A stretch of DNA of 64,000 bases, taken from the NCBI GenBank assembly GCA_021832305.1, contig JAKBLB010000003.1:59756-123755 (forward strand). Reading direction: 5' to 3'. The translations under genes were made by a program, and so were the position numbers. Each line of letters starts with the position of its first letter. The first letter of the stretch is position 1. Positions 15,385-44,130 of this stretch are shown in pieces. This stretch comes from Pseudomonadota bacterium. Its GTDB lineage: Bacteria > Pseudomonadota > Gammaproteobacteria > Burkholderiales > Ferrovaceae. The notes under the pieces are model-generated. The model worked only from the letters and a program-made list of their open reading frames with translations. It was not told where the DNA came from and ran no database searches.

Positions 15385-15468
15385 CTCTCCTCCCATGCGG
15401 ATCTAATGGTTTCATTCTAACCGAATCTTTCTTTCAGACTGTATCCCTTGAGTTTAAAATTCGAAAAC

Positions 15469-17202
15469 ATGAACATCATCCTCGACTTTGCCGAATGTTC
15501 GGGACTGCGTATCCGACGCGTATTTCGGGAACCCCGGCAATGTCTGGTCGCCCATTCGTTGGCGGAGGTGCGCCCCCTATTGCGTCAGGTCACCCAAGCC
15601 TGCCAGGCAGGCGCCCACGCTGCCGGCTTTGTGGCTTATGAAGCTGCAGCCGCTTTCGATGCAGCCGCCCTTACCCATCCTTCCCTGGAAAATTTTCCTC
15701 TGGTCTGCTTTGGAATATACGATGCCCCTCTCCCAGGGTGGGAAGAAGAAAATACCTCCATTCCGGAGGTATCCACCAGAGGCCCCTGGCAACTCAGCCT
15801 GACGCAGGCGGCTTATGGCCAGGCGGTGGATACCTTGCGTCAGGCCATTGCGCGTGGAGAAGCCTATCAGATGAATCTGACGCTCCGCCAGGAATGTTCA
15901 TTCTCTGGCTCATCCCTGCGGTTATACGAGCAACTGCGCCAAACTCAGGATGCTGATTTCAGTGCCTGGCTATCCTGGAGCGGAGGTGCCCTCCTCTCCC
16001 TTTCACCGGAACTGTTCTTTGAAACCCACGGCAATCGCATCCTGACTCGCCCCATGAAAGGCACCGCATCCCCGGAAGATGCCGGGAACTTGGCCCAATG
16101 CCCAAAAAATCGGTCTGAAAACATCATGATCGTCGATCTTCTGCGCAATGATCTGGCCCGCATTGCACTGCCCGGATCGGTTGCCGTCACCGATCTCTGC
16201 CGGGTGGAAGCCTACCCCACGGTGCACCAGATGACGTCCACGGTGACCGCCACCTTGAAACCCAACACCGACCTCGAAGCAATTTTCTCTGCCCTTTTTC
16301 CCTGCGGGTCCATCACCGGAGCCCCCAAATGGCAAGCCATGCGCTGGATCAAACAGTTGGAAGATGGTCCGCGCGGCGCCTATTGCGGGGCCATCGGCTG
16401 GATTCGTCCAGGTGGGGATGCGCAATTCAATGTGCCCATCCGTACCCTCTGGCACGACCTACCCCATGAACGCCTTGTCTGTGGCGTAGGTAGTGGCATC
16501 ACATGGGAGTCGCAGGCCCCCGCCGAATGGGCCGAAATTGCCACCAAGACCCGCTTTCTGGAGGCATCTGCATCCGTCGACCTGCTCGAAACCCTGCGTC
16601 TCGATCAAGGCCTCTGGGCACTTCCCCGCTATCACTGCCGCCGTCTGCTCCACTCTGTCCAGGCCCTGGGGTATCCTTCCCTGACGGAGCGGCGCTTCAC
16701 CGAGGCTCTGGACTATTTTGCCCAACAGCACCCCACCGGATCTTATCGGGTACGACTGCGTTACAACCGGCAGGGCAACTTTCATCTCGAAGGTTTTGCC
16801 CTGCCTGTTTCCCCTAGGGAAGCCCCTCAGCCCGTTTACCTGGCTTCCCATCCCTTTCCTTTCAATCCCCAAATGCGGCATAAGACCACCGAGCGCAGCC
16901 TTTATGACGCTGCCTTCGCTTCTCTGTCCGCCCCTTGCTTCGATGTATTGTTGTGGAACGAACGAGGTGAATTGACAGAATTCTCGCGCGGAAATCTGGT
17001 GCTCGAGAAAAATGGCCAGAAACTCACTCCCCCACTGTCCTGCGGGCTACTGGCCGGCACGCTCCGTCAGTTTCTCTGTGATCGCGGGGAACTCGAAGAA
17101 CACATCCTGACCCGGGACGATCTGGTTCACGCCGATCGACTATGGTTCATCAACAGCGTACGCGGCTGGGTTCAAGTGATCCTCAAGGCACCAGAGGAGT
17201 GA
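15469..17202 (+). CDS. pabB: Aminodeoxychorismate synthase component I fused to aminodeoxychorismate lyase
   Basis: Chorismate-binding motifs (YQMNLTLR, TRPMKGTASPEDAGN, FPCGSITGAPKWQAMRWI) followed by class IV aminotransferase/PabC-like domain (DVLLWNERGELTEFSRGNLVLEKNG). Confidence 0.93.
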   Translation: MNIILDFAECSGLRIRRVFREPRQCLVAHSLAEVRPLLRQVTQACQAGAHAAGFVAYEAAAAFDAAALTHPSLENFPLVCFGIYDAPLPGWEEENTSIPEVSTRGPWQLSLTQAAYGQAVDTLRQAIARGEAYQMNLTLRQECSFSGSSLRLYEQLRQTQDADFSAWLSWSGGALLSLSPELFFETHGNRILTRPMKGTASPEDAGNLAQCPKNRSENIMIVDLLRNDLARIALPGSVAVTDLCRVEAYPTVHQMTSTVTATLKPNTDLEAIFSALFPCGSITGAPKWQAMRWIKQLEDGPRGAYCGAIGWIRPGGDAQFNVPIRTLWHDLPHERLVCGVGSGITWESQAPAEWAEIATKTRFLEASASVDLLETLRLDQGLWALPRYHCRRLLHSVQALGYPSLTERRFTEALDYFAQQHPTGSYRVRLRYNRQGNFHLEGFALPVSPREAPQPVYLASHPFPFNPQMRHKTTERSLYDAAFASLSAPCFDVLLWNERGELTEFSRGNLVLEKNGQKLTPPLSCGLLAGTLRQFLCDRGELEEHILTRDDLVHADRLWFINSVRGWVQVILKAPEE

Positions 17203-18100
17203 TCGGCACATCCACATGCACGTCGGCACCGTGCTGGAAATGGAGATTCAGGGGCACGGTCTGACCGGCTACCAGAGGATGATCCAGGTCCTCCAGCATC
17301 AAGTGATGGCCTCCGGGCGCCAAGGTCGTCTGACCATGGGCGGGAATCACCAGATGATATTCATGTTCCATGTGTGCCATATTGCCTTCCATTTCCATGG
17401 TCTGATGCAGCATGACATGGTCAGAAACCGGACTGTCCGCGCCTTCCAGAGCCTCTTCATGGTCGCCCGGATTGACCAGGGTCAGATACACTACCCCCTC
17501 CTCTTGTCCAGGTGCCGTGGCGCGGGCCATCGGGTGCAGGACCTGAATGGTGGGGGGGCGCACCGCCTGCACGCCCGCTTGCGGGACGGGAGTGGATGAT
17601 CGACCGAGCAGAGGTTCAATGCCCGCCACCAGAACAGATTCAGGCAATCCCTGATCATCATCGGCAGCCCATGCATTCTGGCGCACGATGCCTTTCCGAT
17701 CCACCAGAATGGATAGAGGCATACGCCAGATCCTTCCAAATTCATCCACTTCGGCATGATTCTTCAGAACCCACGGAAAGTGGTAATGTTTCATCATGTC
17801 GCGCGCCATGGGCAGGTCCTCGTCACTGTCCATGTCGATGGCTACGATATCCAGACCCTGGGCATGGTATTTCTGATACAGATTTTCCAGACGAGGCATC
17901 TCTTTCCGGCAAGGAACGCACCAGGAGGCCCAGAAGTGTAACAGAGTGACATGACCCTGCTCGCTTTGTGCCGTCACCTTTCCCCCGCCCTCCAGGTTCA
18001 GGGTATAGGCCGGTATGGGGGCGCCTATCTCGAGGGCCTGAACCATAGGCGCAGAACCCAGCAGTGAAGCAACGATGATCCAAAACATAGAGCGCTGCAT
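17183..18100 (-). CDS. TlpA-type thiol-disulfide oxidoreductase fused to PCuAC copper chaperone domain
   Basis: Signal peptide; HFWASWCVPCRKEMP; C-terminal PCuAC motif VMLHQTMEMEGNMAHMEHEYHLVIPAHGQTTLAPGGHHLMLEDL. Confidence 0.88.
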   Translation of the reverse strand: MQRSMFWIIVASLLGSAPMVQALEIGAPIPAYTLNLEGGGKVTAQSEQGHVTLLHFWASWCVPCRKEMPRLENLYQKYHAQGLDIVAIDMDSDEDLPMARDMMKHYHFPWVLKNHAEVDEFGRIWRMPLSILVDRKGIVRQNAWAADDDQGLPESVLVAGIEPLLGRSSTPVPQAGVQAVRPPTIQVLHPMARATAPGQEEGVVYLTLVNPGDHEEALEGADSPVSDHVMLHQTMEMEGNMAHMEHEYHLVIPAHGQTTLAPGGHHLMLEDLDHPLVAGQTVPLNLHFQHGADVHVDVPITPLVP

Positions 18101-18136
18101 ACAACTTCTCCTTTTGTCAGAAATGTACGATACCCC

Positions 18137-18167
18137 AAAACCCGAAGAACGAGGAAGACTCTTCGGG
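18137..18167 (-). terminator. Hairpin between the OMP gene and the TlpA-PCuAC gene (possible terminator/attenuator)
   Basis: Minus strand CCCGAAGA-GTCTTCCTCGT-TCTTCGGG followed by TTTTGGGG. Confidence 0.45.
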
Positions 18168-18177
18168 TGGGGCAGGC

Positions 18178-19167
18178 TTAGAACAAGTAGGTAATGCCTG
18201 CGTTCACCATCCAGTGAGGCACCAGTTGATCCCCGTTGGCATAGCGGTACAAAGGCAGGTAAATCGATGTATTGGCCTGCCAGTGGCGAGACAGGTCGAT
18301 CAGCGCGCCGGGGGCCAGAAAAATATTGGTATAACCGCTGTTCAGGTTACCATACAAGGCATCGCCCCCCCCTTGATCCGGAGCTCGCCACAGGGCATTC
18401 ACCTGCATCATGGGAATGACATGAGTGCTTGCTTCGATGGCATTCCAGGTGACCCCCGCGACGGTATTGAGACTATCTCCCGGTTTGTATCCCTGATAAT
18501 GATTCAGGGCATGGCGCCAGGTTCCTTGAGAAAACCACCCCCAGTTGGCACTGAAATTTCCCATGCTGTAGTAACCCAGCAATAAATCGGTGGTGCCGGT
18601 TCCCGGTGCCGTATCCCGATCGATCAAAGGGGCCGGATTGATAGGGCCGGTGGGCAATTTCAGACCGAAGGTCAACCCACTGGATTTATCCTTGGAGAAT
18701 CCCGTATACATCCCCATCACGCGTAAATCAGACAGACTGCTGATGTTGGTCGAGCGGGGAGTGGGCGAAGGATTGATCTGCCCCGGTATCCCGCTCGTGT
18801 CCGTGGTAAACGTGCGCATCCAGTAGGGAAGCATGGCCTCGACCCCCCAATTGTCATTAAACATATGCTGACCATAGAGAGTGTAAAAGTTGGTCCCGAT
18901 CTGTTTGTCGGGGTTGAGTGCACCGACCTGTCCACTGGCCCCACTGTGGTTCCAGTTCTGATTCATGAAGGAATATTGAAGGCTCACCTGGTCATTCATG
19001 CCACTCACGGGCAACCCGGGCAGACCCACGTCGAAGACCCCACAACCACAGGCACAGGCCCACCCCTGAGTGGCGACTCCAAAACCCAGGACCAATCCGG
19101 CCAATTTTCTCCACCGTACCGGATTTAAGCGTAAACATTTTTTATAATAAAAAACAATACGATACAT
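18178..19167 (-). CDS. Exported outer-membrane beta-barrel-like protein with N-terminal CxCxC motif
   Basis: Hydrophobic leader then WACACGCGVFDVGLPG; alternating aromatic strands; terminal GITYLF. Confidence 0.7.
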   Translation of the reverse strand: MYRIVFYYKKCLRLNPVRWRKLAGLVLGFGVATQGWACACGCGVFDVGLPGLPVSGMNDQVSLQYSFMNQNWNHSGASGQVGALNPDKQIGTNFYTLYGQHMFNDNWGVEAMLPYWMRTFTTDTSGIPGQINPSPTPRSTNISSLSDLRVMGMYTGFSKDKSSGLTFGLKLPTGPINPAPLIDRDTAPGTGTTDLLLGYYSMGNFSANWGWFSQGTWRHALNHYQGYKPGDSLNTVAGVTWNAIEASTHVIPMMQVNALWRAPDQGGGDALYGNLNSGYTNIFLAPGALIDLSRHWQANTSIYLPLYRYANGDQLVPHWMVNAGITYLF

Positions 19168-19294
19168 CGCAAAGTTCTCCTGAAAAGGAAACTAATACTG
19201 GCGCATGGACTGCTCAGAAGATGAGCAGGCGCATCAGAAAGAAAATCATTTTCCGGCCCCTAAGTTAGGGGAAGATCATCCCGGAAAAAACGAT

Positions 19295-19708
19295 TCAAGC
19301 GTGAACGGGAGGCGCGTTGGGATAAGGGAGGAAGAAGTCGCGGAACGCGATGAAACGAAGAATTTCACGGGATGCCAGGGGCTGTCCATGAAACAGGGTG
19401 AGCCCCAATCCCGAATGGGACAGATCCATGGGCAGGGCCAGGGCCAGCGAACTGCAAAGGGAACAGTGACTATGCCCGGAATCGGAAGGAAAGGAGGGAA
19501 AATGGGCGGGATGTTGATGATCTGTGACGGACGTCGTCTCGACCCATTGTTGCCCTGAAACCGTACAGATTTGAAGTGCGGAGCCTGTCTCGCTGCCACG
19601 ATCAAGAAGCGGATCCAGTGCCCCAACCACCAGAAACATCTGAAACAACAGCGGCCATAAAAGCCAGCCAGCCAGCCGTTGAATCCGATGGGGGGACAAA
19701 AGATTCAT
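19295..19708 (-). CDS. DUF2946-like small membrane protein (copper-associated family)
   Basis: N-terminal TM; LQICTVSG ... HQHPAHFPSFPSDSGHSHCSLCSSLALAL cysteine/histidine pattern. Confidence 0.65.
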   Translation of the reverse strand: MNLLSPHRIQRLAGWLLWPLLFQMFLVVGALDPLLDRGSETGSALQICTVSGQQWVETTSVTDHQHPAHFPSFPSDSGHSHCSLCSSLALALPMDLSHSGLGLTLFHGQPLASREILRFIAFRDFFLPYPNAPPVHA

Positions 19709-19725: not shown

Positions 19726-20607
19726 TCAAGGTTTGACCAAACCGGTGGAATACAGAACCCCCAGATTCTTCTGTGCTTCGGTATTCCCCTGTTCGGAAGC
19801 CTTGTGAAACCAATCGGCCGCTTTGGCGTAGTCCTGGGGCACCCCTTGGCCATTGTCATAGAGCATCCCCAGATTGTTCTGGGCACGGGCATAACCCTGT
19901 ATGGCTGCCTTTCGGTACCATTCGGCAGCCATGATGTAATCCCTGGGAACCCCCCGTCCATTCTCATAAAGTGCGCCCAAATTGTTCTGCGCCTTGGAAT
20001 TACCCTGCTCTGCAGAGCGTCGGTACCAGTCGGCGGCTTCTGCCGGATCCTGAGGAACACCACGCCCTGACTCGTAAAAAACGCCCATGTTGTTCTGCGC
20101 CATGGCATTGCCCTGATTTGCCGCTTTACGGAAGTAATCGACGGCAATGGCGTAATCGCGAGTCACTCCCGACCCATTGGCATACAGTAATCCCAACTGA
20201 AACTGGGCTTCAGCCACATTTTGATCAGCAGCCTTTTTCAACCACTCAGCCGCTTTGGCATAATCACGAGGTACACCTTGGCCGGAGATATACATCATCC
20301 CTAATTTGTACTGGGCCCAGGCGACATTTTGATTGGCCGCCTTGGTATACCAGTCTGCCGCCTGAGCGTGATCTCCGGTCATGTCCAGGTAGGCCCCCAG
20401 ATAGGTTTGGGCCTTGGGGTCGTTGTTGCGCGCTGAATCAAGCAACTTCTGCACGGCCACAGCGTCACCACTCTTGGCGTTGGAAGCCAGAGAGACCGCT
20501 TCCGACTCTGTCAAGGGCGGCGCAGATCCGGAACCCGTGGCGTATAAAGTCGTTGAAGTCCCAAGCATCATCAGAAAAAGCAATCTGGAACCGAGAAACT
20601 TATTCAT
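19726..20607 (-). CDS. Secreted Sel1-like (TPR) repeat protein
   Basis: Signal peptide MNKFLGSRLLFLMMLGTSTTLYA; about six 36-aa repeats A.(A/E)WY.KAA.QG.A.AQNNLG.LY..G.GVP.DY. Confidence 0.92.
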   Translation of the reverse strand: MNKFLGSRLLFLMMLGTSTTLYATGSGSAPPLTESEAVSLASNAKSGDAVAVQKLLDSARNNDPKAQTYLGAYLDMTGDHAQAADWYTKAANQNVAWAQYKLGMMYISGQGVPRDYAKAAEWLKKAADQNVAEAQFQLGLLYANGSGVTRDYAIAVDYFRKAANQGNAMAQNNMGVFYESGRGVPQDPAEAADWYRRSAEQGNSKAQNNLGALYENGRGVPRDYIMAAEWYRKAAIQGYARAQNNLGMLYDNGQGVPQDYAKAADWFHKASEQGNTEAQKNLGVLYSTGLVKP

Positions 20608-20814
20608 GTACACCTTCTCAATCGAGAGAGAAAAACGCCAAGTGGTGAGTATCACCGAACCCAATATCGAAAAACAACGCACGAGCCCGCGCGCTTGTCG
20701 GAATATACCAAAATATCATAAACTCGTAATCACTTTCGTGAGCAAAAATGAAATTATTTTGTCGAACGCCGTGACGCCCTGCCCCGCAATCCTCTCGCCA
20801 TCCTGAAAGTTTTC

Positions 20815-41790: not shown

Positions 41791-44130
41791 ATGAAGCGCA
41801 TCACCCGTGTCTTTTTTTTGAGCCAGGGACTTATCTGCCAGATTGCCCTGGCCAACCCGGGCAATGTCTTGCAGGGGCAAGTCGAAGATAGCCTGGGAAA
41901 CCCCATTGCCCAAGCCCGAATCCAGGTTCAGGATGATTCGGGGAAAATACAAGCCACACTGCGCAGTGATGCCCAAGGCCAGTTCCATCTTTCGCTTTCC
42001 CCTGGCACCTACAGTGTGCAAGCCCATCAGGATCCCTACCAGGACGCCATCGGCATCGTCACGATGGATGGCGCAGATCAGGCGACCCGGCTGACCCTCG
42101 GAAGTACCCAGGCTCTGGCCGTTCAAATCAGTAGCGCGCAAAAGAGAAGTTCCCGTACCCAGGTTTCCACCCAGAATGCCAGCAGTATCACGCGCTTCGA
42201 TGCCCAGGCCATCCAGGACTTGCCGCAAGGAGAAAACACCCCCCTCAATCAGGTTCTCCTGCAAGCCCCCGGCGTCGTCAATGATTCCTTTGGCCAACTG
42301 CATATCCGGGGCGATCATGCGAACATCCAATACCGCATCGACGGTATTCTGCTGCCTGAAGGCATGAACGGTTTCGGACAATTTTTTGACACTCGTTTCG
42401 CTCAACAGATCGATCTCATGACCGGCGCTTTGCCGGCCCTTTATGGAGATCATACAGCGGGGGTGGTCTCCATCACCACGAAACAGCAGTACGATGGAAC
42501 AGGACAATTCGACTTGTACGGTGGGAGTTTCAACACGCTCAACCCCAGTGTGGAATACGGTAATTCCATCGGTAATCTGTCCTATTTCTTCACTGGCTCG
42601 TACCTGAGTAATAGCCTGGGCATCCAACGTCCCAATCCCGGTTCGCCGATCAACGACAATACCCAGCAGTTTCGTGGTTTTGGGTATCTATCTTACTTGC
42701 TCGACCCTACCACCAAGGTCAGTCTCATGTTGGGCGGATATGATGGTCACTTCCAGATTCCTGCCAATCCGGGTCAAGTCCCTGACCCCAATCAAATCGG
42801 AATTTTGCCTCAGATGGGTTTGAAGGGATACAACTCTGCTACAGTCGCCGATCAACAGAACGAATCCAACCAGTTTGCCATCCTGGCTCTCCAGGGTTCC
42901 CTCAACGATCAACTGGATTACCAAAGTTCAATTTTCAGTCGCAATACGAGTCTCCAATATCTTTCTGACATTCCCGGAAACCTCGCCTTCAATGGAGTCG
43001 CTCCAGACGTCCTGCGCAGCAGTCTCAGCAATGGGGTGCAAAGCGATGCTACCTGGCGTCTCACGCCCACGCATACCGTGCGGTTCGGTTTCTATGGTCA
43101 GACAGAAAACATCGTCAGCAACAATACTTCCACCGTGTTCCCGGTCAACGGCAACGGGATGGTGGCAGGACCCGCCTATGCCATAACAGACAATCACACC
43201 TACAATGGCAATACCTTATGGGCCTTATACACTCAGGATGAATGGAAGGCAAGCGATCACCTGACGCTCAATTATGGGTTGCGTTTCGACCAGGTCAACG
43301 CTTTTGTCAATGAAAACCAATGGAGTCCGCGCATCGGTATGGTCTACACCCTGACTCCCCAAACGACCTGGCACATGGGGTACTCACGGTACTTCACCCC
43401 ACCGCCCAACGAGTTGGTCAGTACCAGCACACTGGCACTGTTCCAGAATACCACCTTGGCAGCCAACGGTCAGAACAGTCCGGTCAAATCGGAACGCACC
43501 GATTATTATGATGTCGGACTGTTACATCAACTCAACACCCAAACCAATGTAGGCGTGGATACTTATTACAGCCGAAGCACCAACCTGCTTGACGAAGGCC
43601 AGTTTGGTCCTGCCCTGATCATGACCCCCTTCAATTACAACGAGGGCCTCATCTATGGGATCGAATTCACGGCCAACTACAAGAATGAGAATTTTTCTTC
43701 CTATGCCAACCTGGCACGCACCATCAGTCAGGCACGCGGCATCAGTTCCAGCCAGTACCTGTTTTCTCCGGCCGTATTGAGTTATGCGGCCAACAATTGG
43801 GTTTATGTGGACCATCAACAGGCACTCACTGCATCCAGCGGCTTGGCTTATAATTGGAACGGTACCCACCTGTCCGCCGATCTCATCTACCAGAGCGGGT
43901 TGCGGAACGGTTTTGCCAATACCACCAGCCTGCCTGCCTATACGGTGGTCAATCTGGGAGTGCGTCGTACCATCGCTCTTGATTCCACCGGTCCTATGGA
44001 ATATCGTTTGGTCCTGCTCAATCTGTTCAATCAAACCTACCTGATCCGGGATGGTTCCGGGATTGGCGTAGGTGCCCCTCAATATGGCATGCCCCGAGGA
44101 ATTTTTCTGGGCATCACCAAACCCTTGTAA
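41791..44130 (+). CDS. TonB-dependent receptor with N-terminal carboxypeptidase-regulatory-like domain
   Basis: Signal peptide; LQGQVEDSLGNPIAQARIQVQDDSG; plug motifs IQDLPQGENTPLNQVLLQAPGVVNDSFGQLHIRGDHANIQYRIDGI; barrel TDYYDVGLLHQLNTQTNVGVDTYY. Confidence 0.92.
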   Translation: MKRITRVFFLSQGLICQIALANPGNVLQGQVEDSLGNPIAQARIQVQDDSGKIQATLRSDAQGQFHLSLSPGTYSVQAHQDPYQDAIGIVTMDGADQATRLTLGSTQALAVQISSAQKRSSRTQVSTQNASSITRFDAQAIQDLPQGENTPLNQVLLQAPGVVNDSFGQLHIRGDHANIQYRIDGILLPEGMNGFGQFFDTRFAQQIDLMTGALPALYGDHTAGVVSITTKQQYDGTGQFDLYGGSFNTLNPSVEYGNSIGNLSYFFTGSYLSNSLGIQRPNPGSPINDNTQQFRGFGYLSYLLDPTTKVSLMLGGYDGHFQIPANPGQVPDPNQIGILPQMGLKGYNSATVADQQNESNQFAILALQGSLNDQLDYQSSIFSRNTSLQYLSDIPGNLAFNGVAPDVLRSSLSNGVQSDATWRLTPTHTVRFGFYGQTENIVSNNTSTVFPVNGNGMVAGPAYAITDNHTYNGNTLWALYTQDEWKASDHLTLNYGLRFDQVNAFVNENQWSPRIGMVYTLTPQTTWHMGYSRYFTPPPNELVSTSTLALFQNTTLAANGQNSPVKSERTDYYDVGLLHQLNTQTNVGVDTYYSRSTNLLDEGQFGPALIMTPFNYNEGLIYGIEFTANYKNENFSSYANLARTISQARGISSSQYLFSPAVLSYAANNWVYVDHQQALTASSGLAYNWNGTHLSADLIYQSGLRNGFANTTSLPAYTVVNLGVRRTIALDSTGPMEYRLVLLNLFNQTYLIRDGSGIGVGAPQYGMPRGIFLGITKPL

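Follow-up and report, generated by a model that had tools for sequence, protein, structure and literature searches.

Introduction

To our knowledge, the passage of scarce copper across the outer membrane has been described only for a few TonB-dependent receptors. The closest described system to the locus analyzed here is the copper-import operon cruR-crtA(bfrG)-bp2921 of Bordetella pertussis (PMC9426467, PMC12914433). It is headed by CruR, a DUF2946 protein encoded by an upstream ORF, the copper response of which needs its CxxC motif (Roy et al., PMC9426467). An RAPP motif 45 residues after the CxxC is required for expression, and copper leads to Rho-dependent termination ahead of the next gene (PMC9426467); the R139A substitution abolishes ribosome arrest of CruR in vitro (PMC12992588). 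DUF2946 proteins are exported-type nascent regulators and are not established as membrane copper components (PMC9426467). On the periplasmic side, the biogenesis of cbb3 oxidases in some bacteria is reported to depend, directly or indirectly, on Sco and PCuAC proteins (PMC9145763). Here we describe a cassette, found in a 64,000-nucleotide stretch of DNA (the window), that follows the plan of the Bordetella copper-import operon but has another outer-membrane component.

A three-gene cassette in Ferrovum

The cassette comprises three consecutive minus-strand genes: a DUF2946 ORF at 19295..19708 (137 aa), a cysteine-motif outer-membrane barrel at 18178..19167 (329 aa) and a TlpA/ResA-like thioredoxin fused to a PCuAC domain at 17183..18100 (305 aa), an arrangement that matches its description in a prior sequence-only reading. 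The host is a Ferrovum, an iron oxidizer of acid mine waters, the barrel being 93–94% identical to relatives in Ferrovum myxofaciens P3G and in a Ferrovum MAG. Since relatives throughout Ferrovum carry the same cassette and the two outer cysteines of the barrel are invariant in 66 aligned relatives, the cassette is more than a chance assemblage. Like the B. pertussis operon, it has a DUF2946 leader with a CxxC-45-xAPP layout, followed by a long gap and then an outer-membrane protein gene. However, the Bordetella operon encodes a 22-strand TonB-dependent receptor, PepSY_TM and a leader with RAPP, whereas the Ferrovum cassette has a 12-strand Cys-motif barrel, TlpA-PCuAC and NAPP in the corresponding places. 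The best reading is that the barrel occupies the position held in other CruR operons by TonB-dependent copper receptors.

The CruR-like leader ORF

The 137-aa ORF is recognized by the Pfam DUF2946 profile (PF11162) with 27.0 bits against a cut-off of 23.7. It contains a CxxC motif, CSLC, at residues 82–85 (19454..19465, minus strand, as are all cassette features below), which is predicted to sense copper as in B. pertussis CruR, where this role has been demonstrated (PMC9426467), then exactly 45 residues, and then NAPP at residues 131–134 (19307..19318), ending three residues short of the C-terminus. A gap of 127 bp (19168..19294) separates it from the barrel gene. The sequence-only reading had taken this gene for a membrane component; the CxxC/xAPP spacing as in Bordetella CruR and the 127-bp gap point instead to a regulatory upstream ORF, most likely a copper-responsive one of the CruR type. 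In keeping with a role of this kind, the 78-nucleotide stretch with the largest C-over-G anywhere in the three-gene region sits at the 3' end of the leader ORF (19307..19384), placed as a Rho site would need to be; as a possible Rho loading site it is suggestive only. A riboswitch or intrinsic terminator in the gap was rejected: the 127 bp gave no Rfam match, a terminator scan that listed 10 sites (4.0 expected) placed none within the gap, and the RNA fold of the gap has almost no covariation support.

The NAPP motif stands at the position of the RAPP arrest motif with its arginine replaced by asparagine, and we therefore term the leader CruR-like and not a proven CruR. By analogy with the R139A data (PMC12992588), this replacement would count against CruR-type stalling in the species of the window, and stalling by its leader is a prediction. 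The asparagine characterizes the F. myxofaciens group; in sister genomes the motif reads RAPP (L006, L009), HAPP (L005) or QAPP (L007), and QAPP is also found in leaders of other families. This natural variation before one and the same target gene offers a test of the weight of the arginine in stalling.

A family of predicted 12-strand barrels with invariant cysteines

The 329-aa protein has no match in Pfam or NCBIfam, and literature searches found no description of it. In a protein search of 300 genomes of the order, 67 yielded relatives. The earlier guess of a beta-barrel is borne out by structure prediction: an AlphaFold2 model built from the 66-member alignment has 12 strands (mean pLDDT 82.5, pTM 0.78), with the strands at high and the Cys-motif region at low confidence. 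The top Foldseek matches of this model are FapF (5o65) and the COG4313 channel (4rl8), with E-values of 1e-9 to 1e-11, and a profile search of PDB sequences likewise retrieved FapF (E 7e-8). The barrel is thus predicted to adopt the 12-strand FapF/COG4313 fold; the likeness, at about 13% identity, is one of fold, and we claim no FapF function. It differs from both in its N-terminal Cys motif, its short N-terminal segment and its copper-linked neighbors.

The peptide WACACGCGVF noticed near the N-terminus is present, with C38, C40 and C42 following a signal-like segment (CACGC, precursor residues 38–42; 19042..19056). C38 and C42, which closely follow the signal peptide, are conserved in 66/66 aligned members, all of which were picked for having a Cys motif; four loci were left out of the alignment, namely L070 and L085 (motif in a separate frame), L065 (no motif) and L106 (a weak relative). 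The motif comes in three types, CACGC (Ferrovum and some others), CxxCGC and CGSxxC. Hence, the CxCxC pattern emphasized in the sequence-only reading is not conserved as such, being confined to one clade of the three, and it is the two outer cysteines that persist. In weaker, class-level homologs the Cys motif is mostly absent. Lipidation at the N-terminal cysteine was also considered and rejected, as the preceding residues, judged by eye, misfit a lipobox in most members.

By comparison with the TonB-dependent copper receptors CrtA and OprC, the barrel has 12 strands and no plug or TonB-receptor Pfam domains, and it is not a TonB receptor. The genome encodes four TonB-dependent receptors, some of them partial at locus ends, none of which matches the copper-receptor model TIGR01778 at E 1e-5. 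Replacement of such a receptor by the Cys-motif barrel is consistent with these data but unproven. One of the four lies within the window at about 42175–42465 on the plus strand, with a weak siderophore-receptor match and no copper-receptor match.

The TlpA-PCuAC fusion and the destination of copper

The proposed fusion was recovered by Pfam searches, which place an AhpC-TSA/Redoxin domain and a PCuAC domain (113.6 bits) within the one 305-aa protein. The former has the thioredoxin active site WCVPC at residues 60–64 (17909..17923), in common with the TlpA/ResA oxidoreductases (4nmu, 1jfu, 4txo). Unlike these, it is fused to PCuAC and falls below the NCBIfam cut-offs for TlpA (65 bits, cut-off 230) and ResA, and so we name it TlpA/ResA-like only. 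The PCuAC domain (residues 189–296; 17213..17536) shares both domain type and ligand pattern, H(M)X10MX21HXM, here H232-X11-M-X21-HxM, with PCuAC copper chaperones (PF04314; 2k6w), from which the protein differs by its additional N-terminal thioredoxin domain and by residing in a genome with no detected CuA target. It is the only PCuAC protein of the genome; in one Ferrovum relative the fusion gene is followed immediately by another PCuAC gene, which stands alone (L006:1296-2776).

The two domains are fused in all Ferrovum loci where both are readable and in another Ferrovaceae genome (L086), and the other 298 genomes of the phylum sample gave no match spanning both domains at E 1e-20. Within the genomes sampled, the fusion is seen only in Ferrovaceae, and literature searches found no description of one. 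As the cruR, barrel, tlpA and PCuAC genes of a further Ferrovaceae locus, L048, are separate and follow one another in this sequence, the fusion probably arose by joining neighboring genes.

CuA of cytochrome oxidase had been proposed as the target of the cassette. In this genome CuA delivery is rejected: the sole COX2 is CyoA (TIGR01433, 321.8 bits), which by eye is without CuA ligands, and no CuA subunit was found in the genome, which is 99.4% complete. Alongside this bo3 oxidase there is a second heme-copper oxidase, which on the basis of published work on Ferrovum we read as cbb3-type (PMC4725956), with the one SCO of the genome encoded on the same contig. With no CuA subunit found, the copper is likelier to go to CuB, in either the bo3 or the cbb3-like oxidase.

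A candidate copper-limitation operon

Of the sequence-only reading as a whole, the link to copper and the notion of an under-described module are supported; the CuA target, CxCxC as the conserved feature and DUF2946 as a membrane component are not. Our preferred interpretation, to which we give about an even chance, is that the cassette is a CruR-headed copper-limitation operon, in which the Cys barrel and TlpA-PCuAC hand copper to a CuB oxidase. When copper is scarce, the C-terminal xAPP of the leader peptide would stall the ribosome and the downstream genes would be transcribed; copper at the CxxC would release the stall and Rho would then terminate transcription, both steps having been shown for Bordetella CruR and being suggested here by anatomy. 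The invariant cysteines at the mature N-terminus of the predicted channel would bind Cu(I) close to where the pore faces the periplasm. The TlpA-like domain would keep the barrel thiols, or a Sco/oxidase partner, reduced, and the PCuAC domain fused to it would accept the copper and deliver it to CuB in the bo3 or the cbb3-like oxidase. The genes themselves, the conservation of the cysteines and the fold prediction are as reported above; copper-repressed expression, copper binding, uptake and hand-over to PCuAC in Ferrovum are what we infer. Acid mine water is often copper-rich, and copper limitation there would be unusual, which counts against a copper-limitation operon.

Linkage across genomes and competing explanations

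We surveyed the neighborhoods of the barrel relatives, scoring all stop-to-stop ORFs of the fetched loci as CruR-like if they contained a CxxC followed after 42–47 residues by x[AG]PP near the C-terminus. Such ORFs made up 24 of 348 in the slot upstream of a barrel (same strand, up to 350 bp) as against 3 of 14,068 elsewhere, and one of these three, in L090, resembles a true CruR ahead of PCuAC and barrel genes. The 24 positives are not independent, since 12 come from Ferrovum, with some places represented twice. Outside Ferrovum, the motif test and profile matches together identified CruR-led barrels at 15 loci in 12 families. At one of these loci, a CruR-like ORF with RAPP precedes a barrel that is more distantly related and has a CSTCxxGDP motif (L167:4959-5906). 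Many barrel relatives are without an upstream CruR, which counts against a copper operon.

In the three-Cys (CACGC/CxxCGC) group, 34 of the 44 loci outside Ferrovum have a TlpA-like thioredoxin next to the barrel, across 15 families (32/41 if the count is restricted to loci with 700 bp of downstream sequence), and thioredoxin-type Pfam domains are the commonest among barrel neighbors, PCuAC occurring in 6 of 131 neighbor proteins. The linkage of the barrel to CruR-type leaders and to thioredoxins is therefore strong. Its repeated occurrence upholds the link to copper and, together with the lack in the genome of a TonB-dependent receptor matching the copper-receptor model, the view of the module as under-described.

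The prominence of thioredoxins as neighbors also raises the prospect that the barrel is a thiol-redox element, with its N-terminal cysteines serving the TlpA-like partner as substrate, be it for barrel assembly, for gating or for redox sensing in the envelope, and with copper only one regulated condition. This would fit a set of distant barrels whose signal peptide is followed by a CC(G/A)KCGG-NMP motif, which have an adjacent TlpA-like thioredoxin in 12/12 loci (L131, L133, L136, L138, L146–L152 and L154) and, in several, histidine-kinase/regulator genes nearby. It would also fit the histidine-kinase and response-regulator genes that are often adjacent in the CGSxxC group; there the TlpA-like thioredoxin is rare (2 of 26 loci). 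For the one such pair examined, that of L091, RegB and RegA are the best-matching models, with scores under the cut-offs. RegA of Rhodobacter capsulatus itself binds copper (PMC9147068). Nevertheless, the CruR leaders and PCuAC genes indicate copper specifically, and we regard such a thiol-redox role as unlikely. Some barrels are accompanied by export genes: CusA- and CusB-like genes directly precede that of L051, and a CopA-like ATPase lies upstream in L057. These, and the acid mine habitat, would suit an efflux or detoxification pore like PcoB/CopB, with the cassette limiting periplasmic copper. We think this quite improbable, however, as the PCuAC partner is a delivery chaperone and CruR represses its own operon at plentiful copper, the opposite of what efflux needs (PMC9426467). 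That the barrel is an ordinary small-molecule channel of the COG4313 type, incidentally placed in a copper operon, would accord with its fold matches and with its mostly motif-less class-level homologs, but is very unlikely given the invariant cysteines and the recurrence of CruR and TlpA linkage across many families.

Returning to the copper-acquisition interpretation, we tentatively extend it, though we think this less likely than not, to the family at large: 12-strand barrels with N-terminal cysteines might form a TonB-independent route of Cu(I) acquisition, commonly with a TlpA-like reductase and often CruR-led, which Ferrovum would have condensed to a three-gene TlpA-PCuAC cassette serving CuB-only oxidases. 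The recurrence of the leader-pore pairing in other bacteria suggests a route of copper acquisition that has so far gone undescribed. As an unannotated family with invariant cysteines, tied to a copper-sensing leader and to chaperones, these barrels are a concrete, testable candidate for copper uptake.

Flanking genes

Upstream of the cruR-like ORF, on the same strand and with its end 17 bp away, lies a Sel1-repeat gene with a secreted-looking product (19726–20682, minus strand), a position retained in other Ferrovum loci. The two may be cotranscribed, and thus the cruR-like ORF may not be the first in its transcript. At the other end of the cassette, the last 20 bases of the TlpA-PCuAC gene (17183–17202) overlap, 3' end to 3' end, with a convergent ORF on the plus strand (15448–17202).
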